This document shows, one piece after another, positions 6,030 through 25,342 of a stretch of 27,475 bases of DNA. The DNA lies in the IMG/VR virus record IMGVR_UViG_3300032286_000590, positions 1 through 27,475 of that record. The stretch is one strand, 5' to 3'. The notes beneath the pieces were generated by a model that saw only the letters and a list, made by a program, of their open reading frames with translations, had not been told where the DNA came from and made no database searches. Every line of letters starts with the position of its first letter. Position 1 is the first letter of the stretch. This stretch comes from a virus. The position numbers and the translations under genes were made by a program.

Positions 6030-6863
6030 ATGAAAAGAAATATACAAAAACCAGAAAAAAAGGGATTTGGTTTGTCTATGGTTATAGGATTCTGGGGGTT
6101 AATATTTTTAGCTTTCTTGTTTTCCCCAAAGAAACAAAAAGAACAATTGATTGAAATGACACCAATTGTTAAAGTTGATACATTATATCTTGAATCTACA
6201 ACACAACCAAAAAAAGAAGAAAAAGTTTTAGGTAATAGTAAATCTAAAGTAGATAAATATGCTTATGCTGGTAGGTCTTATGGATATGATATACGTAATT
6301 TAAATAGAACTGAGTTAAAAGCGTACCTTGAAAAGTATGGATTTAGAAATTTGAAAAATGCTAATCTATTTAAAATGAGAAGAATATGGATGGCGTTTAA
6401 CTACGATGACATGCTTATGAATGTTCATTATTTAACAGACTTTCCAATATCAATGATATACTCATTCTTTATAATTGAAGCAACAAACAAAGGTATTGAA
6501 ACAAATCTATGGCGTATTCATGCTAACGCAGGTGGGGGTAAAGCAATAAAAGGTTTTGGTACGGTTACTTATAACACAAGGGAAGTAATCAAAGGTAAAA
6601 ATAAGATGATTAAGGATAAGTTTTATAGTGCTAGTTCAACGGAATTAGGTATAGAGGCTTGGGCTAGAATATTAAATTCTGGTAGGTATTATGATTGTAA
6701 AAAGGCAAATTATAAGTTACCGAAAAAAGATTTATATGAAAGCATATGTAAATGCGTTTATGAATCAGGTTATCATACAGACCCCAAGTATAAGTTCAGA
6801 GCAGAGTTTATGGCTGAATACTGGGAAATAAAAACAAAGAATTTCCCAATAGAAGAGTTTTAA
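6030..6863 (+). CDS. Membrane-anchored glucosaminidase-like lysin
   Basis: This 277-residue protein has a basic N-terminus followed by one hydrophobic segment (about residues 14-31, LSMVIGFWGLIFLAFLF), consistent with a signal anchor. A charged linker (40-75) leads to RSYGYDIRN and a C-terminal domain (about 125-260) resembling endo-beta-N-acetylglucosaminidase/lysozyme folds. In it, FFIIEATNKG (Glu150 as likely catalytic acid) is followed by IHANAGGGKAIKGFG, like the E...G...N.GGIK pattern of that family. It would cut peptidoglycan, either as an endolysin or as a cell-wall enzyme for entry. It is the only rightward gene, set between leftward genes with its own promoter-like element and terminator, which suggests timing separate from the tail genes. 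No holin or spanin is seen beside it. Confidence 0.7.
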   Translation: MKRNIQKPEKKGFGLSMVIGFWGLIFLAFLFSPKKQKEQLIEMTPIVKVDTLYLESTTQPKKEEKVLGNSKSKVDKYAYAGRSYGYDIRNLNRTELKAYLEKYGFRNLKNANLFKMRRIWMAFNYDDMLMNVHYLTDFPISMIYSFFIIEATNKGIETNLWRIHANAGGGKAIKGFGTVTYNTREVIKGKNKMIKDKFYSASSTELGIEAWARILNSGRYYDCKKANYKLPKKDLYESICKCVYESGYHTDPKYKFRAEFMAEYWEIKTKNFPIEEF

Positions 6864-6957: not shown

Positions 6958-9900
6958 TTATATATCTTCAAATGATGCACCAGTGGGTGTAATGATAAAT
7001 GAGAGATCAATATACTCCAAACTGCGAGTTGGCTTAATGTAGATTTTACCGCTCATTGTATTTCTATCAATATCTTCTGGGTCAGATGAAACTGTAACAC
7101 GGAAATCAGTTAAGCCACGATCCCTTCTAATAGCGTCTAGGATTGGATTTACGGTGTCCAAAAACTGTTGGCGGACTATCTGGTCATTTTGTTCAAAAAG
7201 TAATCTCACGGCAACCGCAGAGATTAATTTACGTGCTTGCAATAGTAACCTTCTAACGTTAAGTCTATTTAATGCAGACTCCCTAACTTGTAATGTTTTA
7301 TTACCCCAAATAACGGTATTCACATCAGAGAACGTTGCAATTGGATTTATTCTACCTTGGTATAATATATCTCTTTCGTCTTGTGTAAGTTTAAGTCTTG
7401 CTTTTACTGAATTAACCAAACCTCTACTATAACCAGCGGATGCAAACCAAGGGAATGCCACGTTGTCAGTTAATGCTAAGTTTCTACAAACTTCTCCTGT
7501 TGGTGGAATATAAACTTGTGTGTTGTTTGTTGTATCTCTAACCAAAATCCAAGGGTAATATGTTGCTGTATAATTTGAATCAATATTTGTTTCCTCCAAA
7601 GAAACAATTGATTCTTGGGGGTATATATATGCTTTTGTATTTGTATCCAATAAATCGGCATCTGGCGTTGTTGTTATATAAATTGAATCAGCTCTATCGT
7701 TTTCAACCATATCAATAGCGGCCTCAACCAAATTACTATTATTAACATAATCAATACCAGGGGTAACGAATACATTTATATTAACTGATTCTGGGTTTTT
7801 ATATGTTAAAACACCTTTTAAGTATGCATAATAATCTGTTGTTGCAAAATCAATAGTACCATCACCTTCAACAATCTGCTTAAATGTACCTTGACCAGTT
7901 GCCGCAGCATATCTACCAGTAACGCTTTTGGCTCCCCTCATATAACCAGTTCCACCAATTATATATTCATCACCATTTGTTCTTTTCTCATTATAGATAT
8001 CCCAACCATCAAATCCACCTTCTAACATTAATGTGAATTTTCTTGAATATAAATAATAGTATGCGTTTGTATTATCTTCTGGTTCAGAGTTAAAACTAGA
8101 TACCCCAACCTCAAAGGCTGTTTCACCACTTGTTGTATATGAGTTTGCTATTGTAACAGTCGTAGCACCAGAATCCATGTGGAATCCTTTTGTAATTACG
8201 TTCCAATCAACACTATCAGATATAATACTTGTTGGGTTAACTTTTCCTTTGTATGATAAGAACGCATTATCATATCCGAATGATGTTGAAAAGCCTAAAT
8301 AAGTTCTCTTAACATTATCGGAAGTAACAACGTTACTAGTCGCAAAAGGTTGGTTATAAACAGTTTGATTATTATAATAGTATTGTGTTTTATATAATGG
8401 TCCAGGTGTTTTACTCGAACCATATTTTCTATGCTGGTATCCCATAAAACCACAAGGTAACGCGTCATTAGGATATTCTTCCGACATTTCCAACATAATA
8501 TACTTAGATACTAAATTGTATTCCCCATCGCTAGTACCTATTTTTTTACCAATAAAACTATTTGTTGTCTCATCTAATGTGCAATTTGTGTATTTCTCAA
8601 GAACAACTGGTGCTGAATCAGAATCATAAAAACTTCTAACCAAAACATCAAATGTTTTATTCTTAAATGACATATTAACAATTGACACTTTAACTTCAGT
8701 ATTCGCACTCGAACCATCAGATATAGAAATGAATCTAAATAAATTATATACTTTATTACCCCTCAATTCAGAAACAACATAAGGCGACTTCGGTGATTGA
8801 TATTGCTCTAAATACCAACCAATTGAGTTAGCATTACCACTTCTAGCAGTGTCTAAATAAGTTAAATCAAATCTTAATCCCCTAATGTATCCCATTTTAT
8901 ACATTTGATTTAACAAATTAGGATAGTGTTCTTCAACAAAAATAGGGGTCTCATTTTTAGGTTTTCCGAAATTATCTACACCTATAACATTAGTAATGTA
9001 ATTAGCGTTAGTATCTTTCATAGATACACCAAATGTAAATGTTTTATTTTCTTTAGTTTTACCACTTAAAACAAAATCACCATAAGGATTTGATGTTATT
9101 ACAGAACTATTTGAAGAATCAATTTTTATGTTATTTCCAGATATTTCATAAACAGGTCCATGTTCAGTTGATGAATAACTTGTTAAGCCTCTTGACCTTA
9201 ATGTGGCAACAACAACATTATTATAACTAGAGTATGTCTTACCAGTAAATTGATAAATTGCACCTATCGCTGTACCTGAAAAACTATTAGTTACATTACC
9301 TGGAATAAAAGAACTAAAATAATAATAAAAAGAATAACCTGAATAATTACCATTTCCAAGGTCATTAAATGTTGCATACTCCCATACAAAATTTTGTGAA
9401 TTAGGGGTATTGTCTGATTTTAATGGGATAGTTGTATTAAAGTAATTATATGTAACCCCTGATGTAAATGGGGAAGCAATATTAATATTATAATCAGCTA
9501 GCGGTATTGAACCGTAATATTGTGTTTGTGCAGATAATGAACGATTTAAATAAACATCATTCGCAAATGTTTTTAAATCCTCATAATATGTTGAAATATT
9601 TCCATTTGCACCTTGGTATGTGTCACCAGTAAAAGTTGGTAATGATATATAATTATTATTAGATAAATTAATCAAAAAATTATTTGTACTACCTGTGAAA
9701 TTTATTAAAATATTTTCACTTTGATTAGTATATTTAATTGTTGAGTAATCACAATTACCAATAGTAGTTATTGACCATGATGGACCTGCATCATATCCAG
9801 ATAATCCTAAAATTCTAGTTACATATAATTGATTTGATTGTTGTAAATATGACTTAGCAATATATGCTGATTCATATTTAGGTATTTGTGTGTTAACATA

Positions 9901-10095
9901 TTTTTCTGGTGACGTACCCCCAAAATATGTTTGATATTCATCATAACTTGATATAAATATAGGTTCAAAAGCTGGTCCTTTTAATGTCTCGCCAACCATT
10001 CCTAATGTTGTAACACCAACACTTTGTGAAACAAATGTTAAATCTGTTTCTGAAGTATATACACCTGGTGATACAAATACTTTTTCATTTGCCAT
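6958..10095 (-). CDS. Contractile tail sheath protein (large form)
   Basis: The N-terminus ANEKVFVSPGVYTSETDLT and the segment IFISSYDEYQTYFG are typical of phage tail sheaths. So is the C-terminal part, with LNVRRLLLQARKLISAVA and DPEDIDRNTMSGKIYIKP, leading to a final strand-rich end. The 1045 residues compare with 659 in T4 gp18. The extra length lies in the middle (about residues 110-690), which is rich in Tyr, Asn, Ser and Thr and probably forms surface-exposed inserted domains. The sheath contracts to drive the tube through the envelope. The gene is insulated: a terminator (10156-10191) and TATTTATA box lie before it and the bidirectional terminator after it, which suits very high expression. 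The start is the ATG at 10095. Confidence 0.93.
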   Translation of the reverse strand: MANEKVFVSPGVYTSETDLTFVSQSVGVTTLGMVGETLKGPAFEPIFISSYDEYQTYFGGTSPEKYVNTQIPKYESAYIAKSYLQQSNQLYVTRILGLSGYDAGPSWSITTIGNCDYSTIKYTNQSENILINFTGSTNNFLINLSNNNYISLPTFTGDTYQGANGNISTYYEDLKTFANDVYLNRSLSAQTQYYGSIPLADYNINIASPFTSGVTYNYFNTTIPLKSDNTPNSQNFVWEYATFNDLGNGNYSGYSFYYYFSSFIPGNVTNSFSGTAIGAIYQFTGKTYSSYNNVVVATLRSRGLTSYSSTEHGPVYEISGNNIKIDSSNSSVITSNPYGDFVLSGKTKENKTFTFGVSMKDTNANYITNVIGVDNFGKPKNETPIFVEEHYPNLLNQMYKMGYIRGLRFDLTYLDTARSGNANSIGWYLEQYQSPKSPYVVSELRGNKVYNLFRFISISDGSSANTEVKVSIVNMSFKNKTFDVLVRSFYDSDSAPVVLEKYTNCTLDETTNSFIGKKIGTSDGEYNLVSKYIMLEMSEEYPNDALPCGFMGYQHRKYGSSKTPGPLYKTQYYYNNQTVYNQPFATSNVVTSDNVKRTYLGFSTSFGYDNAFLSYKGKVNPTSIISDSVDWNVITKGFHMDSGATTVTIANSYTTSGETAFEVGVSSFNSEPEDNTNAYYYLYSRKFTLMLEGGFDGWDIYNEKRTNGDEYIIGGTGYMRGAKSVTGRYAAATGQGTFKQIVEGDGTIDFATTDYYAYLKGVLTYKNPESVNINVFVTPGIDYVNNSNLVEAAIDMVENDRADSIYITTTPDADLLDTNTKAYIYPQESIVSLEETNIDSNYTATYYPWILVRDTTNNTQVYIPPTGEVCRNLALTDNVAFPWFASAGYSRGLVNSVKARLKLTQDERDILYQGRINPIATFSDVNTVIWGNKTLQVRESALNRLNVRRLLLQARKLISAVAVRLLFEQNDQIVRQQFLDTVNPILDAIRRDRGLTDFRVTVSSDPEDIDRNTMSGKIYIKPTRSLEYIDLSFIITPTGASFEDI

Positions 10096-10215: not shown

Positions 10216-10377
10216 CTATTTTGGTTTATTTGGAATGTGCATATATATTGTTTTAAACTGATTGTTTATTGTTGCAATATTTGATTCCTCTGTTTGAGCA
10301 TTTAAATTATTAATTGTTAAATTTTTATTAATGTATTTTACATTTTTCTGTTGCATATTATTTAATTTTGATTCCAT
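10216..10377 (-). CDS. Small hypothetical protein, 53 residues
   Basis: An ATG at 10377 opens 53 codons to a TAG at 10216-10218, filling most of the 323-base gap between the 79-residue gene and the sheath. The product is Asn-, Lys- and Gln-rich (MESKLNNMQQKNVKYINKNL at the start) and ends HIPNKPK. It has no membrane segment and could form a short helix. It lies between a TATTTATA box 17 bases upstream and a terminator 25 bases downstream, a clean gene-like setting. I do not recognise the family. Its place before the sheath suggests a small tail or assembly factor, but that is inference. Confidence 0.6.
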   Translation of the reverse strand: MESKLNNMQQKNVKYINKNLTINNLNAQTEESNIATINNQFKTIYMHIPNKPK

Positions 10378-10418: not shown

Positions 10419-10658
10419 TTAGTATATATTAGGCGTTATGAATTCAAATTCAATCGGTGTTCCTAAAACAGGTAGCAAGGTTTCATCGTAAACAATGTAC
10501 CAAAATTGAGGGTCATTTAATTCTGCAAATTGATAACCTACCCAATTTTGCGTCACATCATTTGGATTCACGGGGATGCCATAGTATTCATTGCATTGCA
10601 ATTTTGCCTCAATGGCTTGGTTTTCCGTGGTATATTTGTATCCTTTAAAAAATGCCAT
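10419..10658 (-). CDS. Small fibre-partner protein, 79 residues
   Basis: This acidic, aromatic-rich protein starts MAFFKGYKYTTENQ and ends FEFITPNIY. Its start overlaps the end of the 556-residue fibre-like gene by 14 bases, so translation is coupled. The opening GYKYTTENQ recalls GYKLTENQ in the 72-residue protein at 12341-12559, which follows the other fibre-like gene in the same way. One small gene after each fibre suggests a dedicated assembly chaperone or tip accessory, comparable in placement to Tfa-type fibre chaperones, though no sequence match to Tfa is claimed. There is no signal peptide or membrane segment. Confidence 0.7.
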   Translation of the reverse strand: MAFFKGYKYTTENQAIEAKLQCNEYYGIPVNPNDVTQNWVGYQFAELNDPQFWYIVYDETLLPVLGTPIEFEFITPNIY

Positions 10659-12315
10659 AATATGTATTTATATTTGTTTGGATTCCTTCCCTATTTGCCT
10701 CTTGATCTGATGTGTAAACTATTATTTCACTTACTTTTCCATTTAAATAATCGTCCTCACCACCAGTAGAATAAATTATAGTAGTTATTCCAAATTGGCT
10801 AAAACTTGGATTAACACCATCAACTGTTACGTCTATCTCATTATTTCTGTAAGTTTTAATACCTGTATTTTTTGTAAAAACAGTATTTAAATAAAGTTGA
10901 TTTATATTTCTAATAAGTGATACACTGTTAAACGCAAGTTGTCTGTTTCTATGTACAGTATAATATTGATTTTCATATCTAATTTTTAAGGAACCTGTAG
11001 GTCCTCCTATAATTGCATGATTAGCTTTACTAGTTGACCTTAGCGATACTTCAAAAGTTGAATAAACACTATTAGATGATGGTATTACTGTAAAACTTAA
11101 AGAATCAAATCCATCACAAACTATTGTTGGTTTAGAATTTTGCAAATTAACAATACCATTATTTACTATTTTAGATTGAAAAGTTGCCGATGTTTCTGTT
11201 GCATTTTTTGCATTCCCACTTTGGTCGTACCACCTTGTTACAAAGCCATTTCCAACACCGCAAAATGATAATAAAGAAACTGTATCAAGATTTCCAGCTA
11301 CAAAGCCAATATCTTGCTCCGTGTTATCTGATGACCTCCTTACCCTTATTGCACTTCCTGCATAAGCCGTGCGCAATTTACGCAAGGAATAAGCGGCTGC
11401 TGCATTGGGATAGGTATCTAATAGCAATGGTGGTGGTGAAACTGATGGTGTGATTGATGTGGTTGGAGTAAATGTGATTGTGGGTGTTGGTGTTTGAGTT
11501 ATAGACTGAGTTAATGTAGGCGTAACTGTTTGTTCTATCGAACAATTCAATCTAAAATCCCATATGTTTATAGGGGCACAAGAATAAACTTCAACTTTTG
11601 CGATTTCACTTGTGGATGTTTTTACAAAACTAAACAACCCCTCGCTTGTTGAATTAACAAATGGATAACCATCTGGGGCTGAATTTGTAACATTTATATT
11701 TGGATACTCTAAATTCGTTAAAGGATCTATCTTACCCATTAAATGTTCTGTAAAGTTTTCTCTAAACATTTGGTCATAATCATAAACAAATGAACCTACA
11801 TATCCAGTATCAAGCAATCTATTATTATTATAATATAAAATAAATCTATCCGCAATAGTATATGCACTATATTCAAATGTTACTATAGTATTAGTACTAT
11901 ACCCAATATTCACATAAGATATATGTGGATAAACTTCTGGTCCATTATAATCAATTAATGTGTTACACAATAATGGACTTGTTGGGGTGATAGTTAAAGT
12001 TGGTGTGATAGTTAGAGTTGGTGTGATAGATATTGTTGGGGTCAAAGTTGGAGTTATAGATGTTGTTGGTGTCACAGTTGGCGTTACACAAGGTAAAATA
12101 TTACCTAAATCTGGAACAACTAATTCATAATTTGTTTTATATGTTGGTGAATATATGTTATAAGTTCCACTAAGACTATTAGACCCATTTATTGTAAGAA
12201 CATCAAATGGAACTATTTTCTCACCCAATGTAAATACTTGGTTTCCTTGCGTAACAGAAACAAATACCACCTCATTTAAAAGGTTATTACTTAATATTTT
12301 TATACCACAACTCAT
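10645..12315 (-). CDS. Fibre-like protein with Pro/Thr linkers and arabinofuranosidase-B-like C-terminal domain
   Basis: This 556-residue modular protein starts with an adaptor-like region (residues 1-75). A Pro/Thr linker follows (77-114), then a beta-rich middle domain (about 117-260), a second Pro/Thr linker (263-296) and a C-terminal domain (300-556). The last opens with AAAAYSLRKLRTAYAGSAIR and RVRRSSDNTEQDIGF, then FVTRWYDQSGNAKNAT. That signature is shared with the alpha-L-arabinofuranosidase-B catalytic-like (jelly-roll) domain common in phage and Bacteroidota proteins, where it often binds glycans rather than cuts them. The likely role is host glycan recognition at the tail. The next gene (10658) is coupled. 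Enzyme activity cannot be judged from the sequence alone. Confidence 0.75.
   Translation of the reverse strand: MSCGIKILSNNLLNEVVFVSVTQGNQVFTLGEKIVPFDVLTINGSNSLSGTYNIYSPTYKTNYELVVPDLGNILPCVTPTVTPTTSITPTLTPTISITPTLTITPTLTITPTSPLLCNTLIDYNGPEVYPHISYVNIGYSTNTIVTFEYSAYTIADRFILYYNNNRLLDTGYVGSFVYDYDQMFRENFTEHLMGKIDPLTNLEYPNINVTNSAPDGYPFVNSTSEGLFSFVKTSTSEIAKVEVYSCAPINIWDFRLNCSIEQTVTPTLTQSITQTPTPTITFTPTTSITPSVSPPPLLLDTYPNAAAAYSLRKLRTAYAGSAIRVRRSSDNTEQDIGFVAGNLDTVSLLSFCGVGNGFVTRWYDQSGNAKNATETSATFQSKIVNNGIVNLQNSKPTIVCDGFDSLSFTVIPSSNSVYSTFEVSLRSTSKANHAIIGGPTGSLKIRYENQYYTVHRNRQLAFNSVSLIRNINQLYLNTVFTKNTGIKTYRNNEIDVTVDGVNPSFSQFGITTIIYSTGGEDDYLNGKVSEIIVYTSDQEANREGIQTNINTYYGIF
11428..11529 (-). repeat. Pro/Thr linker 2 of the 556-residue fibre protein
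   Basis: It encodes residues 263-296, with repeated TPT/TPS and S-I-T-P units. It joins the middle domain to the C-terminal recognition domain. Confidence 0.7.
11974..12087 (-). repeat. Pro/Thr linker 1 of the 556-residue fibre protein
   Basis: It encodes residues 77-114, with TLTITPT-like repeats of imperfect 18-base period. It joins the N-terminal adaptor to the middle domain. Confidence 0.75.
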
Positions 12316-12340: not shown

Positions 12341-12559
12341 TTATTTTGTAAATTCGTAAACAGGTGGAACATATTCAGCCTGTGGACATTCTAACAACCA
12401 ATTTATTTCCGTTGTTTCAATGATTGCTATGTCCTCATCTGTAAAGAAGGTAAACCAAATACCATTTATATCCTGCACGCAATTTATAAATTGATGTGCT
12501 GTGTAGAATTTATCTTGTACAAAATTCTTTTGATTTTCTGTTAATTTATATCCTATCAT
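12341..12559 (-). CDS. Small fibre-partner protein, 72 residues
   Basis: The protein begins [19 protein letters not shown] and ends with a Pro/Tyr-rich tail ([12 protein letters not shown]). It contains [19 protein letters not shown], with a strongly hydrophobic core and acidic surface. The ATG overlaps the TGA of the 723-residue fibre gene (ATGA), so it is translationally coupled to it. It shares the GYK-TENQ opening with the 79-residue protein after the neighbouring fibre. I infer a fibre-specific chaperone or small tip protein. No family is recognised. Confidence 0.7.
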
Positions 12560-14727
12560 ACTTGGCGATTTAAAGTGGTTTGGAAGGCTTGAACTCGCGT
12601 GTAAAAATTATTGAATTCTAAATTACTCAAAGAATTTCCTAAATGAGCAAAAGCAATTTGTTTATTTGAAAATGCAGCCGCACCTGTGCTTACATTTCCT
12701 GCTCCAACAAATACATTTAAGTTTGGTAAAAATGTTGCAATGGTTGATGTTGTTTTAGAAATTGATATATTTCTTTCAAAAGATACCCAAGAACTTGAAC
12801 TACTCCTTGATACACCCCACATGCCTCGAGAATCAGTAGTTGTTATTCTTACTCTACCATTAGTTAATTGAGTATCCCAACAAAATTGCTCTCTAAATGT
12901 AAGCTTGGATTCTAAAAAAGTATCTGGAATATATGTAGGCAAAGAAGCATTACCCATCTCTATGCTTCCTTCGCTAGGACTTAACTCAGTTCTTAGATAA
13001 GCACTCAATGAAAAATTGTTAACTGTTTGATTCGTATTTGTGTTAAATCCAGTGTCCATGAATGCACTTGTTCCATTCCCATTTACCCCCGTACTTGCAA
13101 AAGTCCATCCACTACTAAATGTACCCGTAAAACTTGCACTCTTTAAATTCTGCGCACAAGATGCCGCACTTGCTCCCACCATTGGGTAAATGGCTTTCAT
13201 CTTTGTCCAAATACCATCTGCCTTCATTCCAACTACCAATGTGTTAACTGCCGTTTTTTCTGTTGCCGACAATGTTCCCCCTGCCACTGTAACACGGTCA
13301 AAGAAGGCTTGCGCGTCTGCATCAAATGTTGTAGTTGGTGTAATAGTGTTAGTAGGGGTGATTGTATTAGTAGGTGTTATTGTATTGGTAGGTGTTATGG
13401 TATTGGTAGGAGTTATTGAATTAGTAGGTGTTATAGTGTTAGTAGGTGTTATGGTATTGGTAGGTGTTATTGTATTGGTAGGGGTTATTGTATTAGTAGG
13501 TGTTATGGTGTTAGTTGGTGTTATTGATGGTGTCATAGTATTAGTTGGTGTTATGGTGTTAGTTGGTGTTATGGTATTGGTAGGTGTTATGGTATTAGTA
13601 GGCGTTATTGTATTGGTAGGGGTTATTGTATTAGTAGGTGTTATGGTATTGGTAGGGGTTACTGTTGGCGTTGGTCCCATTCTTAAAGAATTACCTTTAA
13701 AATAAGTGTTATTTGTATTCAATAATCTAAAATTACTATTATTAAATGTTGTGTACACACGGTAATTACCTTGTGGGATTGATGATCCTGTGTATTGAAT
13801 TACCATATTGCTATACACAGAATTAATGCCAACTGGAGTTAGCGAGTTAGGGTCACCATAATCATTAACGCCAATATTAGTAATAACCTCATTATTTGTC
13901 GCTGTTGTCGAAATGACCCAAGTAAACCAAGAATAACCACTAACCAAATCTGCTGGAACTTCATGTGTCTTAAACAAATATGCTTGAATTAAATTACCAT
14001 AAGAATCAACACCACCACTTGTTCTACTTATGTTTGAACTTCTTACTGATGGCGCATTACCACCCCAACCAGAGAATGATAGATATGAATTTAACTGATT
14101 TGAGAAAACATTTTGGTTTATTGATGGCGCAATGCCATTTGCAAAACCCCTAAATGCCGAACTCCTTGATTGCATCCAACCGTTGAATTGAGTATTTAAA
14201 CTAATTGGTTCAATAAATAAGTAAGCATATAATATTGGTAATGATGGTGTTATAGATGGTGTATTGGTTGGCGTTTTTGTTGGCGTAACGGTTCTTGTTA
14301 ATGATATGGTTGGTGTTATAGATGGTGTAACGGTTCTTGTTAATGATATGGTTGGTGTTATTGTTGGTGTAATAGATATTGTTGCTGTTTTTGTTGGTGT
14401 CGGTGTTGGTGGTAAGCCTGATGTCAATGTAGGTGTTGGCGTTATTGTTGGTGTTCTTGTAACACATGGTGTAGATGGTATTGTTGCTGATGGCGTTGGA
14501 CACTCCAAACTATATTGAACCCCAGCTGATAATTGATTTCTAGTTATATTTGTATATATTGGTGTTGAATTGATTGTACCAATATAAATATTGAATGGTC
14601 CCTCTGATGTTGATAAGTTATTTAATCTTAATAGGAAAGTTGTACAACCACTTGTATTAACAGTCTGCTCATATGATGAGCCACATACTGGATCCTGATT
14701 AGATATTATAAACTTATATGCACCCAT
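12556..14727 (-). CDS. Tail fibre-like protein with two Pro/Thr linkers, one a 17-copy hexapeptide repeat
   Basis: The 723 residues form five parts. First is an adaptor-like N-terminus (1-76, with [11 protein letters not shown]). Second is a Pro/Thr linker (77-164), third a beta-rich domain (165-350). Fourth is a second linker (352-468) made of 17 TPTN(T/S)(I/M) hexapeptides plus TPSI and TPTTTF. The C-terminal domain (469-723) starts [11 protein letters not shown] and has [17 protein letters not shown], a start I recognise from phage fibre and tail proteins. Its remainder is beta-rich and LamG/concanavalin-like. This looks like a fibre or adhesin displaying a recognition domain on a long, extended stalk. 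Wobble positions in the repeat differ between copies, so the peptide rather than the DNA seems to be kept. The following 72-residue gene is coupled by ATGA. Confidence 0.78.
13324..13674 (-). repeat. 18-bp-period tandem array coding 17 hexapeptides
   Basis: The array encodes residues 352-468 of the fibre. Units are 18 bases, with variation at synonymous positions. The order is six TPTNTI, one TPTNTM, an inserted TPSI, five TPTNTI, one TPTNSI, four TPTNTI and a final TPTTTF. Copy number could change by slippage without breaking the frame. Confidence 0.9.
14236..14499 (-). repeat. Pro/Thr linker 1 of the 723-residue fibre
   Basis: It encodes residues 77-164. It contains a duplicated block ISLTRTVTP (about residues 127-135 and 141-149) whose two DNA copies are nearly the same, suggesting a fairly recent local duplication. 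Confidence 0.75.
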
Positions 14728-14950: not shown

Positions 14951-15210
14951 GCTACAATTGATATATCAACAATTAAATCACAATTAAATTGGCAATTTAA
15001 TTTCCTCTCAATAAATTCATTTAATGAATCTATTATTTTTATGGTTACTTGTGGCGCTGTTGCAAAAACCAAAGGAAGATTATATTCAGTCGTTCCACTG
15101 AAGTATGAATTTACTTGCCCCAGATACGTTTCATTACCCCCATATACATCAGATATGTAAATCTTCAAAGGATACGACCCAACCAAATTTGATAAAACAA
15201 TTTTTGTCAT
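14947..15210 (-). CDS. Small adaptor-like protein, 87 residues
   Basis: The start is placed at the ATG at 15210, which overlaps the stop of the SprB-repeat gene as ATGA. A TTG at 15219 would add three residues but is less likely. The sequence starts MTKIVLSNLVGSYPLKIYIS, has DVYGGNETYLGQVNSYFSG, then VTIKIIDSLNEF, and has two Cys near CQFNC. It is a paralogue of the 72-residue neighbour (LVG-PL-IYISD-YG pattern). Two copies between a SprB-repeat protein and a fibre suggest they form part of the same attachment assembly. A function beyond that is not visible. Confidence 0.65.
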   Translation of the reverse strand: MTKIVLSNLVGSYPLKIYISDVYGGNETYLGQVNSYFSGTTEYNLPLVFATAPQVTIKIIDSLNEFIERKLNCQFNCDLIVDISIVA

Positions 15211-17348
15211 GATGTGCAAATAATATCATATGTTATTTTTAATCTTATTGTTAAAACTTGTGATAGTATTTGTTGATTATTAGGTTCAGCGATAATTTTA
15301 ACTTTATTTGTGAACAAGTCATATTCAACACTTTCAACACCAGGTACATCATTAATAATTGTTTTTAAAGCATTAGCATATTCAGAGTCTAATGGTACTG
15401 AATTTCTAGTATATCCAGTATAAAAAATTAAACTATCACTATAACCATTAGGTTCTAGTTCTACAATTATTTCATAAATCCCATAATTTAAATTACACAA
15501 TGGATTATTAGAAGCCAAATCGTCAAACCCTTCATTAAACATATCCGATAATGTCTGGCTACCTATTGGTTGTATAATGAAATCTTGTGTATCAATTGTA
15601 TAAACCTGAGTTGTTGTAATTGATCTAAAACAATCAACAATAATTTCTCTCTTTAAACTACAATCATTATCATCAGTTAATAATAGTGTATATGTCCCCC
15701 CAGTTAACCCAGAAACTATAATACTCTGAGGATTGTTTGGTATATTACTGGACCAATTAAATACAAATGGTGGTTTGCCTTTTGTAATAAATGTGTTAAT
15801 AATACCATCATTACCCTTATCACATGCTATTGGATATAAATAAAAATCAACCCCATTATTCTGGCTGATATATACTTCTTTGGTTTGTTCACAACCTAAA
15901 GAATCTATAACCCTGCTAGTATATTGCCCACTTTGTATATTATTAAATGTAACAGCGCTTAAAGAAGTATCTAATATAGAATAATCCGTTCCTAAATAAT
16001 AGCTATATGGAGGTGTACCCCCTGAACTAATATATAAAAATACACCGCCATTAGAATTCCCACAAGTTGTTCCAGTTGTCGAATAGTTTAAACTAAACCT
16101 ATTTTCTGTCATTATAGTAACTTCATCACTATAATAACAACCACTAGAATCTGTAATGTAAGCAGTATAATTACCACTTTGCAAATTATTAAATGTATGA
16201 TTATTTGAATTTGTTATAAATGTATTTGTATTTCCACTTGAATTAATAATCCCAAAAGTATATGGACCTAATCCCCCATTTGCTGTTAATGTTAATGCTC
16301 CTCCATTATTTGAACAATATGAATTTTGAACAAAAATGTCAGCTGATATCATACTATTAACGGTAGATAATGTTAATGAAGTGTTAACATTACAAAGCCC
16401 AGCATCTGTTATTGATATAGTGTAACCATTAGCTGGTAAATTATCTATTAAAATTGTCTTCTCATACGTTATGTCAACATATCCACCATTCAATAAATAA
16501 TAATATGGTGCAGTCCCCCCACTTAAAGTTATGGTTATACTACCATTTGAATTAAAACAAATTGGTGGTGACGTTGTTATTGATTGAATACCCAAGTTTT
16601 GAACATCCTTAACTTCAATTGTTTTTGTTTTTGAACAATTTTTAGCATCAACTATTTCAACTGAATACAATCCACTTGTCAACCCAGTTATAGTATTTCC
16701 AGTTTGTGGTACACTCCAATTATATGTGTATGGCGAATAGCCTGTTTCCCCCGTTATATATATTTTACCTGTTGATCCTGAAAAACAAGGTGAATCGTCT
16801 ATAACATAATACCCAAAATCAAAATCACTAGATGATTCAATAATAAATGATTCTGTCTTTGCAGTACACCCACCAAAATCTTCAAAATATAAATAATATG
16901 TACCACCGCTTAAATTATTATAAAAAATATAGTTTGATATACTACCTTTGCTATCTATTAAATTTGATTGCTGCGTATATAAATACGAGTAAATGGATGA
17001 GTTATTTGATGTTGTACTAGCAACTACTTGCCCATTGTTATTTCCACAAGTTGTATCAACAACATTACTTATGTTAGCACAAAATCCGCTTGATATTGGT
17101 ATATTAATATAATATTCTAAATTTGTTGGTGTCGATGAATCATTTATCTTTACCGAATATGAACCCCCACTTAATGAGGATACAAATATTGGGCTAGTTG
17201 TATTAATAATAGTTGCATTATTTAGTGGTGCTAAAAAATCAATTGTATATGGTGGAGTTCCACCACTTAAAGCCAGAATAAAAGCACCACTACTATTACT
17301 ACTACAATCACCCGTTAATGTTAAATTATAAGAAAATGCAGACATCAT
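15207..17348 (-). CDS. SprB-repeat structural protein (adhesin-like), 713 residues
   Basis: About seven repeats of roughly 70-80 residues carry the SprB signature: GG-PY near the start and a (L/I)-G-Y-(S/T)-hydrophobic-D-x-x-x-C near the end. Examples are SGGTPPYTI, SGGTAPYYYLLNGG, ANGGLGPYTFG, SSGGTPPYSYYLG and KGKPPFVFNW, with closers such as GLYSVEIVDAKNC and GNYTAYITDSSGC. SprB is the gliding adhesin of Flavobacteria, and such repeats mark Bacteroidota surface proteins. A different C-terminal domain (about residues 575-713, with IGSQTLSDMFNEG) probably anchors it to the baseplate. There is no signal peptide, as expected for a virion protein. The ATG at 17348 overlaps the previous stop (ATGA) and is preferred over a TTG at 17354. 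Confidence 0.8.
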   Translation of the reverse strand: MMSAFSYNLTLTGDCSSNSSGAFILALSGGTPPYTIDFLAPLNNATIINTTSPIFVSSLSGGSYSVKINDSSTPTNLEYYINIPISSGFCANISNVVDTTCGNNNGQVVASTTSNNSSIYSYLYTQQSNLIDSKGSISNYIFYNNLSGGTYYLYFEDFGGCTAKTESFIIESSSDFDFGYYVIDDSPCFSGSTGKIYITGETGYSPYTYNWSVPQTGNTITGLTSGLYSVEIVDAKNCSKTKTIEVKDVQNLGIQSITTSPPICFNSNGSITITLSGGTAPYYYLLNGGYVDITYEKTILIDNLPANGYTISITDAGLCNVNTSLTLSTVNSMISADIFVQNSYCSNNGGALTLTANGGLGPYTFGIINSSGNTNTFITNSNNHTFNNLQSGNYTAYITDSSGCYYSDEVTIMTENRFSLNYSTTGTTCGNSNGGVFLYISSGGTPPYSYYLGTDYSILDTSLSAVTFNNIQSGQYTSRVIDSLGCEQTKEVYISQNNGVDFYLYPIACDKGNDGIINTFITKGKPPFVFNWSSNIPNNPQSIIVSGLTGGTYTLLLTDDNDCSLKREIIVDCFRSITTTQVYTIDTQDFIIQPIGSQTLSDMFNEGFDDLASNNPLCNLNYGIYEIIVELEPNGYSDSLIFYTGYTRNSVPLDSEYANALKTIINDVPGVESVEYDLFTNKVKIIAEPNNQQILSQVLTIRLKITYDIICTS

Positions 17349-20300
17349 TGACAAATTAAAGTTACATCAACACTAATATTTAGTGTCATCTTTTTATTAT
17401 CAGTATTTACTGTTTTACAAAATAAATCAGTCAATACCAATTGATTATCCATTGATTCTTGATAATTAATATTATTTTTTATTAAACTAGGTAAAACACT
17501 ATTCAAAGTATTTGACCATATTTGTTGTGTTGGAGCATCTGTATCGCCTAGTCCAAGATAAAATTTAGTTTTATTAATTACTGTATTACCTAATTTAAAT
17601 TCCAAATACCAAGTTGTCATAACTTTATTATTATCACAATTAGCCGTTGTCGATTGTTTAGATTTAGTTATATTATTTCTTAGTATGTCTAAAAATTTAT
17701 CATTAGGCATAGAAATAATCTGTGCTACATTTTTTTGGCAAACACCATTAAATATATCAGAATTTATTAACTCAGGACTATCAGCTTTTATATCTAAAGT
17801 TTTAACATTTAAATTTCTATTAATTATAGAAACACAATTTTCTATATTATAACCCATATTATTTAAAGATGTTATTATACTATTAGTATAGTAGGTATCG
17901 GTAGCATTTTGATTAACATCCAGCATATAACTAAATTGAGTTTTATCACTCAACCCATTGTTATTCTTATACACACCATCCCCATTTTTTATGGCTATTA
18001 ATAAGTTTTTAAAATCTAATGATTTTACTTCATTTGTGTTAACTCTAAATATAATACCCGTATAATATGAATTTGAAAAATTCGCTATTCCATTTCTTAA
18101 ATTACTTATGTCTGTTAAGTATTCCGCTGTTGGCGTTTGATTTATATTTAAACTATCTCTTGTATAAACTGGACTAGCATCACTCTGGAAAACTAGATTT
18201 ATAACACTTCTAATACTAGCTGCTGATCCACCTCTATTTAGTACATCAAAAGTTCTTTCTTTATTTGTAAATTCCTTAATCTTTACTCTATTGTTGTACA
18301 ATACCCCATCATTATTGTAATATTTAAGTAAACAATTTTTTAATACCCCATCTTTCATTTTTAATAATGATGTATAAGTACCAGCCATATTAGTTTCATT
18401 ACTATACCAAATATTTATTTCTGTATCTTTATTTAAGACTCTCTTATTTGGTATTTCCCCAACCACACAACCTAACCTTCTTTTGTAAACATATTTTTGC
18501 CTATGAAATGGTGTATTCTCGTATCTTGATCCACCAATCCAAATTGTTGTCGCAGGAATCATTTGTTCAACAATATTAATCCAATATGGGTTAATATTGT
18601 TTGCATACTCAATTAAATTACTATATGTGTATTTATTTGTTGCATTAATTTGGTTTCTTGCACCAATATATAACCAATACAAATATTGCAATACAGGATA
18701 ACCACCAGTTTTTCCATCAGTAATAAACAATCTATTTCTAGTGTTTAACATGTTGCTTGAAAAAGTTTGAGAAAACTCAAAAAATGTCTTAGTTTTAGGG
18801 CTTGGTATTATAGTGGTACTATCTTTATCGTCTGTATTTTTATTTGGGTTATTTGACCCAACATTTATGAATGTTAAACCCTCTTGTGGTATTGGAAAAT
18901 TATTTTCAACGGACTTTAGCCAAACGTCATATAATATAGCTTGGGATGGATTAATATATAATTCGATGTTTTTAACATTTAGAACCAACCTTTCAGTCGT
19001 TAAAAAATAATACGCATTATACTCACCAGAACTTGATTTTCTTGTTGCCAAATCATCAATATTCCAAGATTTTTTATTATCAATTGTCTTAGTTAAAGCG
19101 AACCCATCATTAATATATGGCAATCTTCTAAATAAATCTAAATATTTTTGACCATATGTGAAGCCTTCAAATTCTGAACTATATATTGTAGTATCCCCGC
19201 TAACTACTCTCTTTGGTATTTCTAAACTTCTATGAGATGGGGTCAGTTCATACCAGCCTGCACCTTTTTGAAAATAGAAATCAGGATTATTAACTTTTTT
19301 AGGATATCCACTTAAATAATCAACAGGATACTCATTTATATTGTAATCAACTACAACAGAATCATTATTTGACGTAAAACCAGTAAATATAACGCCCTCA
19401 ATTGTATACGTTTTGTTCGTAAAAATAGGATCAGAATCAATATAATATCCCCCATCTAGTTTAGCTATAGAATTATTAAATTTATTTAAATTTATTGGTG
19501 CATCAGCCAAGTATATGTGCTCGTTGAATTGTATCATAGCATCTGGAACACCAAATAACTTCATTAAAAATTCAATAGGTCTTCTTGTTCCCTTTGATTT
19601 AAATAAATAAAATGAATTTATTACTAAATTTCTATAAAAAGTATAATTTAATTCTAATGGGGTTTGAGTTCTACTATAAGCAGAATATACACCACTTTCA
19701 TTCGTACCGAAAATTGAGTCGATTAATGACTTATCATATAAGAAATCAAAGTTATCCCCCCAGCCTAATGTTTTACTTAAATTTGCTACTAATTGTGAAG
19801 GGATATCATTTTTAGGTACATAATTAACAGCGTTCATGTATCCTAATGAATCAATAAATTTCTTTACTTCATCAAAACTACGACCATATATTTGTAAAAC
19901 ACTTTCAACTCTACGGTCATTCGTATCAAATTCTTTTAAAGAATCAGCAACAAAAAATCTCGATATCAAGTTGGTTTTAACCCCATCAAAATATTCAGCA
20001 ATCTCTTGTAATTTATTCAAATAAGTATCAAAACTCTCGGATGATATATCTAAATTCCAACTACCATCTAGTGGCCAATTTAAACTATAATTGACAATAA
20101 CAAAACTACCATCGTCTTTCTCCTCTGGAACTTGTAAGTTCATAGTGTAAACTGGGTTTGTTAATGTATTTAACATGTATTGTTCAACCTCGTCAAAATC
20201 ACTCTTCAGAATTAAATTATATAAAAAATCGTTTGGTCTAATTATATAAGGCGTTATTGAACTATGTACACCAAAGACATCAACATTAAATGGGTTGCCT

Positions 20301-20956
20301 GATACTGTAATATTTAATATCCCATCTGTCAAAGTATCTGTTGTTGTTAATATAGTTATTGGATATTGTTTACCACTTATATCTAAAACATAATCTCTAT
20401 AATATGTTGTTAAATCCCTAAACTTACTAACACTAATTTCGTTCGAACTAATATTAATTGCAGCATTTTTTGTAAAATCAACCCCAAATGGATTATTTAC
20501 TTTTAATACATCAATATCAAATGTTGTATTGATTAAATCATAATTAATATTTGTTGCAGTATAACCAGTAACTAAATTATCATTATATAAATTAACATCA
20601 ATTGATGCTGGAAAATAATTTATAATTTTTGTTATTGAAACTGAAAATCTTTTTGATAATGAACCATATAATGAAAAATTAAAAACTTGTGATATATCAT
20701 AATTTGGTACAATATTTAATTCATTAGCTATGCTTTCTCTTACATTAGATATATCACTAATACCTAAGTCCAAAAGATTTATTGGCTTATCAAATAAATT
20801 TGTATAAAAACTTGGCGATGTTTTTTCCGTTATACTTGGGGTAAACTGGAAATTACCATAGGTTAAACCCCCACCTTGCACAAGCTGGTATCCAACTAAA
20901 TTATCAAATACTCCAATTCCACTACCTGGACTTTTCTTAATATAAATTATTGGCAT
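17345..20956 (-). CDS. Large baseplate-type structural protein, 1203 residues
   Basis: This is the longest gene here and soluble throughout. A block near residues 340-470 (RRVESVLQIYGRSFDEVKKF, later LFKSKGTRRPIEFLMKLFG) resembles baseplate wedge proteins of the tail protein I/gp7 type, where a subunit-joining domain precedes host-facing parts. A later block (VEQMIPATTIWIGG, then RQKYVYKRRLG) is one I associate with large Bacteroidota phage tail proteins. It shares one base with the upstream stop (TAATG) and overlaps the SprB-repeat gene downstream, so it is tightly coupled. I infer a wedge or peripheral scaffold to which the SprB-repeat and fibre proteins attach. The exact T4 counterpart cannot be assigned. 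Confidence 0.65.
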   Translation of the reverse strand: MPIIYIKKSPGSGIGVFDNLVGYQLVQGGGLTYGNFQFTPSITEKTSPSFYTNLFDKPINLLDLGISDISNVRESIANELNIVPNYDISQVFNFSLYGSLSKRFSVSITKIINYFPASIDVNLYNDNLVTGYTATNINYDLINTTFDIDVLKVNNPFGVDFTKNAAINISSNEISVSKFRDLTTYYRDYVLDISGKQYPITILTTTDTLTDGILNITVSGNPFNVDVFGVHSSITPYIIRPNDFLYNLILKSDFDEVEQYMLNTLTNPVYTMNLQVPEEKDDGSFVIVNYSLNWPLDGSWNLDISSESFDTYLNKLQEIAEYFDGVKTNLISRFFVADSLKEFDTNDRRVESVLQIYGRSFDEVKKFIDSLGYMNAVNYVPKNDIPSQLVANLSKTLGWGDNFDFLYDKSLIDSIFGTNESGVYSAYSRTQTPLELNYTFYRNLVINSFYLFKSKGTRRPIEFLMKLFGVPDAMIQFNEHIYLADAPINLNKFNNSIAKLDGGYYIDSDPIFTNKTYTIEGVIFTGFTSNNDSVVVDYNINEYPVDYLSGYPKKVNNPDFYFQKGAGWYELTPSHRSLEIPKRVVSGDTTIYSSEFEGFTYGQKYLDLFRRLPYINDGFALTKTIDNKKSWNIDDLATRKSSSGEYNAYYFLTTERLVLNVKNIELYINPSQAILYDVWLKSVENNFPIPQEGLTFINVGSNNPNKNTDDKDSTTIIPSPKTKTFFEFSQTFSSNMLNTRNRLFITDGKTGGYPVLQYLYWLYIGARNQINATNKYTYSNLIEYANNINPYWINIVEQMIPATTIWIGGSRYENTPFHRQKYVYKRRLGCVVGEIPNKRVLNKDTEINIWYSNETNMAGTYTSLLKMKDGVLKNCLLKYYNNDGVLYNNRVKIKEFTNKERTFDVLNRGGSAASIRSVINLVFQSDASPVYTRDSLNINQTPTAEYLTDISNLRNGIANFSNSYYTGIIFRVNTNEVKSLDFKNLLIAIKNGDGVYKNNNGLSDKTQFSYMLDVNQNATDTYYTNSIITSLNNMGYNIENCVSIINRNLNVKTLDIKADSPELINSDIFNGVCQKNVAQIISMPNDKFLDILRNNITKSKQSTTANCDNNKVMTTWYLEFKLGNTVINKTKFYLGLGDTDAPTQQIWSNTLNSVLPSLIKNNINYQESMDNQLVLTDLFCKTVNTDNKKMTLNISVDVTLICQ

Positions 20957-21849
20957 TATTCTATTATATTATCAAAGTTTTTACTTATATCAATATCATC
21001 ACCTCGGTCTTCTCTAACCTCATAAAGCAATTCATTAAATTGATTTCTAACTTCAAATAAATTATATTGTTTATATATGTTATTTTCACTATCATATATA
21101 GTGTATATTCCATCCTCAACAGATTTAGTCTGGTTGCCAAATATCCCAACAGCTAATGTTGATATGTCATGTTCAGCAATCTCAACCTCTAATGTAGTAG
21201 GATTAAAATATGTATTAGAAATAATAATGCTTTGACCAGGCTGCCCAATAAATGGTACAGCATTTGTCTTGTTAGATGGTGTACTACTAGGGGAAAGCGT
21301 TAAAAAAACTAAATTAGTATTATTATCAACATATCTATATCTTATTGTTTTTTGTGATGTATTTGTTTCATTTGTAACAATTGGCTCACAAAAGAAAGAT
21401 GATGTTATTATTCTAAAAAAGTTAGGTACTTTATTCCCTTTATTTATATATTCAACTCTATATCCAACTAATTCTTGAATTGTTTCAAATTTATTCCTAA
21501 AATCATCTGGAACATCATCTAAATTTATTATGATACCTTTAACATTTGGTAATGCACTTAATATACCGCAATCACTTATCTTTGTTCTAATTTGCGCTGG
21601 TCTTAAATATAAAGTATAATAACCAATGCTACTAAATTCAGCAGCAGGTAATGTTAAATTATATAACCCCCCCAATAACTCTTGAGTATTAACATCATCA
21701 AAATATGGCTTTAATAATGTTGTTGCAGATAATTTTTTTTGAACAATGTTTTCTGTTTGATTTCTTGATGGTGAATATATCATGATTATTTCTACATCCT
21801 CTGGACTAACATCACTAGGTCTAACTGTACCATACACTCCAATTGCCAT
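20956..21849 (-). CDS. Unrecognised structural protein, 297 residues
   Basis: It starts MAIGVYGTVRPSDVSPEDVE and has IIMIYSPSRNQTEN, LYNLTLPAAEFSSIGYYTLY and a C-terminal IYTIYDSENNIYKQYNLFEV. No catalytic motif, membrane segment or coiled coil stands out. The pattern looks beta-rich with several glycine turns. It is the first gene of a run that includes the 1203-residue baseplate protein, which it joins by a TAATG overlap. A TATTTATA box lies 24 bases before its ATG. A baseplate wedge component is a reasonable guess from context only. Confidence 0.6.
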   Translation of the reverse strand: MAIGVYGTVRPSDVSPEDVEIIMIYSPSRNQTENIVQKKLSATTLLKPYFDDVNTQELLGGLYNLTLPAAEFSSIGYYTLYLRPAQIRTKISDCGILSALPNVKGIIINLDDVPDDFRNKFETIQELVGYRVEYINKGNKVPNFFRIITSSFFCEPIVTNETNTSQKTIRYRYVDNNTNLVFLTLSPSSTPSNKTNAVPFIGQPGQSIIISNTYFNPTTLEVEIAEHDISTLAVGIFGNQTKSVEDGIYTIYDSENNIYKQYNLFEVRNQFNELLYEVREDRGDDIDISKNFDNIIE

Positions 21850-22904: not shown

Positions 22905-25040
22905 TTATTTTACATTAACATATTCATACCACTTTATTAAATCACCATTCACGCCAATTCTCTTATTCTCCACTTTCATATCATAATAACCATAGGTTTT
23001 ATCAACATAATTTAATTTTACTTTATAGTAAAAATCAAAAATACTATTTAAATTATATTTGTCTGATGTTAAACCACCTTGTGATATATTACACAATCTA
23101 GTAAACAATCCAGTTGAGCTATCGAAAAAGGTTGCCCCCAGATAGAACGTATCAATACTTAAATAATCTTTATCCTTTAACCAATATAAAAAATACCCCT
23201 CTGTATTTTTATTATAATCTAAAATATAATTTGGATATAATAAGCCATCAGTATTTTTTTCACCATTATTAAATGGTAATATTGTTGTTAATAATATTTT
23301 TTGTTCCTTCGCAATAGGTGAATCATAATAATCTAATTTAAAAAATGAATTTTTAAATTTATTAGAATTATATTTTAAATCTCTAACTAAAAATCTACTA
23401 TTTAAATAACTTGGTATCCATTGAGCTTTATTTGCTATAGTAGTTCCTGTGAAAAAATTAAACTCAAAATTAACAGTATAACATTTTTCTAAGTTTACTG
23501 CCGTAATAGTTGGGGTTGACGTACTTGTTATTGTTGCGGTATTTGTTGGCGTACTTGTTATAGTTGTTGTTGTTGTTACGGTTGGCGTTATAGTTGGTGT
23601 TGGAGTTGTTGTTGGAGTAATAGTTGTTGTTATTGTAATTGTGGGGGTTGGTGTTGGTGCAATTGTTGTTGTGTTAGTTGGTGTGAATGTTGGCGTTGGT
23701 GTTGTGGTTGGTGTTGTAGTTGAAGTGTTAGTTGTTGTCGGTATTGGCGTATTTGTAGCAACTAACCCTGCCTGCCAAAAAATTGTGCTGCCGTTTTTTA
23801 TTGTTTCTTGCGATGATGTTCCTGGTATGAAATATGTTTGAATTTTTGTTAAATCTGAAAATCCGACATTCTGCTCCCCATTCCAAGGTGAAATATTCAT
23901 ATCTTTTGCCAGCCTATCAATTCTATTTGCAAAACCTATTGTTGTAAATGGGTCAATATTTCCATTAACATTATAATTAACTGATGAACCAGCAAAAACT
24001 AACCCTATTATTTTTCTAACACCATTAAAGTCCGCCAATAAAGCTGATCCTGAATCCCCACCTTCAATAGGGGATAAACAAAATCTCCCTGGTGTAATTG
24101 TTGAAGCACTAGCAATGAACCCAATACTATCCCCAAACACAACATTTGTTTCAGATTTTTGATTACCATAAGCAATATTAAAAATATTATATAAACTAAA
24201 TGGAAGTAATTTACTTGCCCCCTCACCTTTAGCACCTGTTCTTGCCCCACTACTAAATAAATTATTACGATTCGATAATAATGAATCAATTTCTTGAGTT
24301 GTAGCATATTGCAATGGTCCAGTATAACCATTTAAATTAAATTGTTTATATGATTGAGTATAACTAATGTCAGATGGTTTTAAAGTAGTTAAGGCAACAT
24401 CCATATAATTTGTACCACTATTGGATATTGGTTTGTATTTTTTAACAGTCCCAATAAAACTTGATGAATCATTAAATGGTTGAACAATCCTATTATTTAA
24501 CACATTAGTTAAAACTCCATTGATATTTCTATTTGAAGTAATAAATGCAGAATCTCCAACCAAAACATGATTGTTTGACACCCCAACTAAGGTATTAGTG
24601 TCATTGTCTTTAGCTAAAAAACCTAATGTCCCAATATATCCAGCTATAGTTGTATAATTTATAGCAGAAGATCCACCTTGTATTGGTCTAATCTTTGCTC
24701 TATTTGGAATTGGATTTGCGTTTGTATACCAATCATAGAAATTAGTTGGACAAAATGATGCTAAATTTGGGTTTGGTTCCCCTTGAAGAAATTTAAAATT
24801 ACCTTCTATAACATCAGTTAAATAAACACTAGTATCAAGTAAAAGTGTTTTTGGTACAATCTCATCACTATTTAGTTCATTTGTTGACAACTTTTTATCA
24901 ACATAATGTATTATACTTAATTCATCTGTTATAGTATTATTAACTACTTTATACCCATATCCTAAACCAATAACATTTTTAGGTCTATTTGGAAAATAGT
25001 CCTCAATTAATTTTGAAATATTATTTGTACTATTAATCAT
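22905..25040 (-). CDS. Trypsin-like serine protease fused by a Pro/Thr linker to a tail-type domain
   Basis: The N-terminus KNVIGLGYGYKVVNNTITDE leads into a chymotrypsin-fold protease. The three triad residues are visible: His158 (GVSNNHVLVGDSAF), Asp214 (YMDVALTTL) and Ser330 (IEGGDSGSALL). The order and spacing match trypsin-like proteases of the type with an N-terminal IGVGVGYK domain. A Pro/Thr-rich linker (about residues 431-512) follows, then a C-terminal domain (513-711) with KLDYYDSPIAKEQKILLT and WLKDKDYLSIDTFYLG, a style I associate with phage tail proteins. There is no signal peptide, so it should act from the virion. It could process tail proteins or digest host surface proteins. 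The start is the ATG at 25040, with a TATTTATA box 28 bases upstream inside the preceding gene. Confidence 0.8.
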   Translation of the reverse strand: MINSTNNISKLIEDYFPNRPKNVIGLGYGYKVVNNTITDELSIIHYVDKKLSTNELNSDEIVPKTLLLDTSVYLTDVIEGNFKFLQGEPNPNLASFCPTNFYDWYTNANPIPNRAKIRPIQGGSSAINYTTIAGYIGTLGFLAKDNDTNTLVGVSNNHVLVGDSAFITSNRNINGVLTNVLNNRIVQPFNDSSSFIGTVKKYKPISNSGTNYMDVALTTLKPSDISYTQSYKQFNLNGYTGPLQYATTQEIDSLLSNRNNLFSSGARTGAKGEGASKLLPFSLYNIFNIAYGNQKSETNVVFGDSIGFIASASTITPGRFCLSPIEGGDSGSALLADFNGVRKIIGLVFAGSSVNYNVNGNIDPFTTIGFANRIDRLAKDMNISPWNGEQNVGFSDLTKIQTYFIPGTSSQETIKNGSTIFWQAGLVATNTPIPTTTNTSTTTPTTTPTPTFTPTNTTTIAPTPTPTITITTTITPTTTPTPTITPTVTTTTTITSTPTNTATITSTSTPTITAVNLEKCYTVNFEFNFFTGTTIANKAQWIPSYLNSRFLVRDLKYNSNKFKNSFFKLDYYDSPIAKEQKILLTTILPFNNGEKNTDGLLYPNYILDYNKNTEGYFLYWLKDKDYLSIDTFYLGATFFDSSTGLFTRLCNISQGGLTSDKYNLNSIFDFYYKVKLNYVDKTYGYYDMKVENKRIGVNGDLIKWYEYVNVK
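23505..23750 (-). repeat. Pro/Thr linker of the protease fusion
   Basis: It encodes about residues 431-512, rich in TPTPT, TTTIT and NTT units, less regular than the array at 13324-13674. It joins protease and tail-type domains. Confidence 0.7.
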
Positions 25041-25042
25041 AT

Positions 25043-25342
25043 TTAAATATTAGGTATGTATATAAATACAGTGCCAGCTACGGCACTTTTATCTTCAATT
25101 ATATTATTTATATTGATTGGACTAATCAATTCTGAACCAGTAATTATTTTATCACATTTTTGAGGTGAAAACCTTGATAATTCATAATCTATTTTATTAC
25201 TAGTTATTTCATTTATAATATCACTTTCATATTGATTAATGATATCTCCTTGATTTAACATATCCCAATCAAAATTTATTGGAATATTAATATTTAAATC
25301 ATCAATATTTGGTCTTTTTATTAAGAATTTATTCACAATCAT
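25043..25342 (-). CDS. Small hypothetical protein, 99 residues
   Basis: The ATG at 25342 is preferred over a TTG at 25345. The gene overlaps the end of the 547-residue gene by 14 bases and stops two bases before the protease-fusion ATG, so it is in a tightly coupled chain. The sequence starts MIVNKFLIKRPNIDDLNINI and has NFDWDMLNQGDIIN, ending TVFIYIPNI. It is acidic and Ile/Asn-rich without membrane segments or known motifs. It may be a small baseplate or linker subunit, an inference from context only. Confidence 0.55.
   Translation of the reverse strand: MIVNKFLIKRPNIDDLNINIPINFDWDMLNQGDIINQYESDIINEITSNKIDYELSRFSPQKCDKIITGSELISPININNIIEDKSAVAGTVFIYIPNI
25061..25068 (-). promoter_or_regulatory. 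Possible internal promoter box TATTTATA before the protease fusion
   Basis: The minus strand reads CTGTATTTATATACATACC. The box begins 28 bases before the ATG at 25040 but lies in the coding region of the preceding gene, so it may be coincidental. Confidence 0.25.

Follow-up and report, generated by a model that had tools for sequence, protein, structure and literature searches.

Introduction

Phage tails are well known for enzymes that cut glycans. Trypsin-fold proteases displayed on tails have hardly been described, and no literature specific to them was found within the limits of what we covered. A serine protease-like domain within a phage tail protein does have a parallel in the S74 intramolecular chaperone autoprotease, a self-cleaving domain built into phage tailspikes; it differs from the protease treated here in being C-terminal, in using a Ser-Lys dyad and in having an unrelated fold.

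Streptogrisin B and alpha-lytic protease, of the S1 family, are secreted proteins made with a pro-region. NARROW LEAF 1 (NAL1) is a rice yield gene, and its family is known from crop genetics; plant NAL1 acts on TOPLESS-type corepressors. The plant proteins (PDB 7y77, 8pmi and 8pn2) consist of an N-terminal domain, made up of a helix and a beta hairpin, followed by a chymotrypsin-fold domain. In maize, NAL1a acts as a trypsin-like enzyme and degrades REL2, a corepressor, within the plant cell (PMC12915138), a result that supports the proteolytic nature of the family. NAL1-like proteases of the same family and with the same triad also occur in bacteria (Bacillota, Chloroflexota, Nitrospirota and others). 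They are stand-alone proteins, mostly of 294–374 residues.

Here we describe a NAL1-type protease encoded in a virus record of 27,475 bases (the entire stretch analyzed, hereafter "the window"). Genes for a sheath (6958–10095), a tube (4429–4917) and a hub-like protein (3582–4331) identify the window as a fragment of a contractile-tailed phage. While the protease family and the presence of enzymes on tails are both known, a baseplate gene interrupted by a NAL1-type protease, together with a potential docking-tail partner, is new; no description of such a protease in a baseplate gene was found in the literature searched.

Results and Discussion

Domain organization of the 711-residue protein

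The initial annotation placed an open reading frame at 22905–25040, and reanalysis recovered it at exactly this position on the minus strand. It encodes a 711-residue protein that comprises a NAL1-type serine protease, a Pro/Thr stalk and a C-terminal baseplate-cluster domain. The protease module (residues 1–425) is complete and of the trypsin-like serine type. It begins with a NAL1_N-like domain of a helix and a beta hairpin (residues 1–85; 24786–25040, minus strand), for which the Pfam NAL1_N matches (E = 0.0019–0.005) lie below the cut-off and which is included in a structural match to rice NAL1 that starts at residue 3. The chymotrypsin-fold catalytic domain follows (residues 118–388; 23877–24689, minus strand); over residues 118–386, VIA-align returned Z scores of 16.4–16.9 against streptogrisin-type proteases. 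The module closes with an extension of about 37 residues (389–425; 23766–23876, minus strand) that, in our alignment, is confined to the tail-phage clade: it is present in the window and at L010, L014, L022 and L067 and is absent from L068 and from all bacterial homologues.

The stalk (residues 426–513, about 88 residues; 23502–23765, minus strand) is 72% Pro plus Thr. It leads to a C-terminal domain of 198 residues (514–711; 22908–23501, minus strand), which is equivalent to the second half of a 263/264-residue baseplate-cluster protein of related phages. This domain has no annotated family, and its placement in the virion thus rests on synteny. The protease gene lies in a single run of minus-strand tail genes together with those for sheath, tube and hub, which supports the proposed location in a baseplate cluster, and this synteny and the uninterrupted homologue both support the earlier description of the C-terminus as a tail-type domain. 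The stalk and the reported lack of a signal peptide likewise held up: by eye, the N-terminus (MINSTNNISKLIEDYFPNRPKN...) has no hydrophobic stretch resembling a signal peptide.

The protease is a member of the NAL1 family

A trypsin fold had been claimed from the sequence, and the predicted structure supports it, matching NAL1 and streptogrisin-type proteases throughout the catalytic domain; the triad residues come in the order expected. The protease is a member of the NAL1 family, a relationship that the initial annotation did not recognize. The window protein by itself matched the PHROG family phrog_20754 ("protease") over residues 7–226 (E = 7e-19), scored 18.3 bits against Pfam NAL1_N, for which the cut-off is 27, and did not match Nal1_C. 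Among the 30 aligned members, all matched phrog_20754, and 26 and 18 matched NAL1_N and Nal1_C, respectively, at E ≤ 0.01. The PHROG entry covers the same module as the window protease and is silent on virion location or fusion. When a profile of the 30 homologues was searched against the PDB (hmmsearch), the best match was rice NAL1 (7y77; E = 1.6e-15, in two matched stretches), followed by streptogrisins and alpha-lytic protease.

Fold comparisons were carried out with an AlphaFold model built from the 30-sequence alignment (pLDDT 74.8, pTM 0.82); an earlier model from five sequences (pLDDT 45) was not used. Over residues 3–396, the model superposes on NAL1 (8pmi) with a Z score of 27.7 and an rmsd of 3.8 for 323 residues. 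Streptogrisin B and alpha-lytic protease share the catalytic-domain fold (residues 118–388; Z of about 16–17), and their match leaves out the N-terminal domain of NAL1. Of the HtrA/Deg proteases, which carry a PDZ domain after the catalytic domain, most Deg entries match the catalytic part only (Z of 13–14), and no PDZ domain was detected after the catalytic domain of the window protein by Pfam at E ≤ 1. The phage and plant forms have in common the order of the two domains and of the triad residues. They differ in sequence (16% identity), in the C-terminal extension, the Pro/Thr stalk and the baseplate-cluster domain that the phage form adds, and in their wholly different gene settings. The bacterial proteases, too, lack extension, stalk and baseplate fusion, unlike the window protein.

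Homologues with 40–54% identity to the protease are found in other phages and, together with the PHROG match, take the observation beyond chance. A tblastn search of 50,697 phage records with the protein returned nothing at E ≤ 1, and a scan of viral contigs with the window protein as the single query gave no match; relatives could be gathered only through a neighboring baseplate gene and through alignments. A fold search of the viral library found one near relative, an uncharacterized 449-residue protein of Virus NIOZ-UU157 (TM 0.80, 30% identity).

The active site

The protein was said to contain an intact His158/Asp214/Ser330 triad, and this assignment is borne out. The three residues, whose codons lie at 24567–24569, 24399–24401 and 24051–24053 (all minus strand), reside in the motifs SNNH, NYMD and GGDSGSA, follow one another in the trypsin order with the serine in a GDSGS loop, and are invariant in all 30 aligned homologues. 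In the model, the ten-residue blocks that contain H158, D214 and S330 have mean pLDDT values of 89, 92 and 75. One motif is unusual: residues 265–269 (24234–24248, minus strand) read GARTG, while 29 of the 30 homologues retain an arginine directly after the glycine (GRTTG-type). This departure could alter the activity of the window protease. Judged by its sequence, the window protein is probably proteolytic, given the intact triad and GDSGS loop, with some doubt attaching to GARTG.

A homologue from an archaeal virus keeps all three catalytic residues as well; in Aeropyrum coil-shaped virus, the putative serine protease (L027:1902–2882) aligns with the same family, triad included.

Evidence that the protease interrupts a baseplate-cluster gene

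Three phage contigs (L004, L005 and L069) share the baseplate cluster with the window; they are close to one another, and the comparison spans these three and the window. Where the window has two open reading frames, each of the three has one uninterrupted gene of 263/264 codons. In L004, it is located two genes downstream of the gene that follows a baseplate wedge (gp6/J-like) gene. The C-terminal domain of the window protein (aligned residues 513–710) is 65% identical, over about 198 residues, to the last ~197 residues of the L004 product (7236–8024), with the same relationship in L005 and L069. The first 63 residues of that product are 56% identical to a separate 100-residue ORF in the window, immediately upstream of the protease, in which the conserved first half of the baseplate-cluster gene occupies 25154–25342 (minus strand). 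Although the ORF list starts this frame at a TTG (25345), the ATG at 25342 is the likelier start.

Because the relatives have the gene whole and the window has its halves on either side of the protease and stalk, we conclude that an insertion very likely split a conserved baseplate-cluster gene in its linker; insertion rather than loss is supported by the occurrence of the cassette in other phages. The upstream half ends in a putative docking tail (below), so that the cassette seemingly brought its upstream flank with it, which would make the window arrangement the derived one. The fusion to a baseplate-cluster domain that the initial annotation described is therefore real; the split gene, and the other arrangements in which this protease occurs, had not been seen. 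The rearrangement is itself visible here, with relatives that have a whole baseplate gene standing beside a phage in which it is split by a protease.

The protease in other phages

In a phylogenetic tree, the protease clade of the window has 100/100 support and includes stand-alone genes of 408–414 codons in jumbo phages (L012–L014, L022 and L067). A search for the same fusion in relatives, proposed at the outset, revealed several arrangements, of which fusion is just one: the protease may stand alone, form part of a 2766-residue protein, or be fused as in the window. The 2766-residue protein (L010:6307–14607) is encoded by G001, the 72-kb contig that holds L004. The protease module opens this protein; after it come an M12B metalloprotease, whose HExxHxxGxxHxxD motif (HELGHNLGTIHTHD) is intact, many stalks, with about 17 stretches rich in Pro and Thr, and a VWA domain. 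G001 thus combines two unrelated proteases with adhesin-like modules.

In the jumbo phage G004, the stand-alone protease is situated between the sheath and a T4-type portal. We considered whether the relatives might represent bacterial contractile injection systems instead of phages; this was rejected, as G004 encodes the T4-type portal (E = 8e-78), a terminase and a sheath. Throughout the tail-phage clade, the neighbors of the protease include long proteins with Pro/Thr stalks, and wherever a contig reveals a tail region, it is there that the protease lies. G008 (L067) yielded no sheath, and recognized tail genes do not surround its protease and stalked partner.

A conserved tail upstream of the protease

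In the window and three other cases, the protease gene is directly preceded by one whose product terminates in T-[LV]-F-x-x-I-P-N-[LI]: the C-termini read NTLFIFIPNL (L014), NTLFMFIPNL (L022), VTVFIHIPNLL (L067) and GTVFIYIPNI (window; TVFIYIPNI at 25046–25072, minus strand). The same tail stands directly upstream of the protease in L014/L012/L013, L022/L023 and L067. All four distinct upstream genes of this sub-clade carry it, and their products otherwise differ, except for one domain common to L014 and L022. Chance was considered as the origin of the motif: across 608 ORFs of at least 50 residues from the viral loci, the strict form turned up nowhere but immediately upstream of proteases and in a single 53-residue ORF. 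Readthrough of the stop codon, or frameshifting, from the upstream gene into the protease was rejected as a general explanation. Measured against the upstream gene, the start of the protease lies in the same frame twice and, in the remaining two cases, in the two other frames; such variation argues against a readthrough fusion. The tail is a possible docking peptide that would engage the protease non-covalently.

A 53-residue ORF of the window (10216–10377, minus strand), flanked by a stalk gene on one side and by the sheath gene on the other, ends in TIYMHIPNKPK, close to the motif; no homologue of it was found in the other loci.

Proposed role of the protease

The account that we favor, and hold to be probable by a modest measure, is that a T4-type phage tail bears a NAL1-family protease whose cassette split a baseplate gene, that this protease cuts a host surface protein, and that a tail peptide docks the severed half. 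The cassette would have combined a stand-alone protease gene with the 3' terminal part of a gene for a stalk protein, and its point of entry would have been the linker between the two domains encoded by a baseplate gene. The C-terminal half would thereby have become tethered to the protease through the Pro/Thr stalk, the N-terminal half gaining TVFIYIPNI. In the virion, the C-terminal domain would anchor the protein in the baseplate region, and the stalk would project the protease. So exposed, the enzyme may cut a host surface protein (adhesins, the S-layer or other outer proteins) at adsorption, to reach or free a receptor. TVFIYIPNI probably docks the upstream protein on the protease with no covalent bond, in which case the two baseplate pieces may remain together as a single complex. 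We infer virion location, extracellular action, substrate and docking alike: display on the virion is suggested by the tail-cluster location in the window and by the position in G004, where sheath and portal flank the gene, and a host-surface role by the G001 protein, in which the module is fused to adhesin-like domains and another protease. Such a protease would extend the NAL1 family to virus particles, suggests a tail that carries a protease besides the usual sugar-binding parts, and would lead one to expect phages whose infection depends on cleaving a surface protein.

A broader proposal, which we advance only tentatively and regard as doubtful, is that the NAL1-type protease and a docking-tail partner make up a mobile cassette that plugs into virion proteins, through docking in the jumbo phages, fusion in G001 and both in the window. 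If so, phages would have a modular way of arming their tails with proteases, and in the window the protease would hold the split baseplate halves together.

Could the enzyme serve assembly or maturation instead, cleaving tail or fibre proteins, perhaps even itself at the stalk, with no role at the host surface? Its fusion to a conserved baseplate-cluster domain, the abundance of stalked partners in its cluster and the tail peptide of the neighboring gene, which could be a processing signal, all fit this idea. We nonetheless consider it unlikely: the baseplate gene is whole, with no protease inside, in L004, L005 and L069, and no further copy of the protease was found in the L005 and L069 contigs, which are fragments, so that baseplate assembly does not depend on a protease at that place. 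That G001 joins the module to VWA domains and to a protease of another family also speaks against an assembly role.

Less probable still is action inside the cell, for example on host regulatory or defence proteins, the baseplate fusion being incidental or undone by self-cleavage. The degradation of REL2 by the maize enzyme (PMC12915138) sets a precedent, the bacterial homologues have no evident signal peptides, and stand-alone relatives at L068 and in the huge phage LR756508 (L076) lie among replication or unknown genes. In these two relatives, however, the C-terminal extension that marks the tail-phage clade is missing, and L068 falls outside that clade in the tree, while the proteases within it keep company with the stalk proteins and, where this is visible, with tail genes. 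Finally, the departure from the GRTTG-type motif and the several other stalked modules in the tail cluster might suggest a catalytically weak or dead adhesin that only binds, a notion made very improbable by the intact H158, D214, S330 and GDSGS loop and by a triad that is invariant over the whole clade and the bacterial homologues.

Additional observations

Repeats of the SprB type are best known from Bacteroidota surface adhesins. The window encodes a 715-residue protein with such repeats (15207–17354, minus strand; Pfam E = 6.6e-18), which hints at a Bacteroidota host. Two further Pro/Thr-stalk proteins are encoded downstream of the protease (10645–12315 and 12556–14727, minus strand), the first of which matches ArabFuran-catal (E = 3.4e-8). 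In L004, the C-terminus of a tail-fibre gene product (17992–21387) matches long tail fibre families and may be S74-like. On Rhizobium plasmids (L025 and L028), a NAL1-like protease gene is located near radical SAM and HEXXH "putative peptide modification" genes, and its product is possibly a peptide-maturation protease. Inside the tail cluster of the window, an endolysin/FlgJ-like gene, identified through weak matches, lies on the opposite strand (6030–6863, plus strand).
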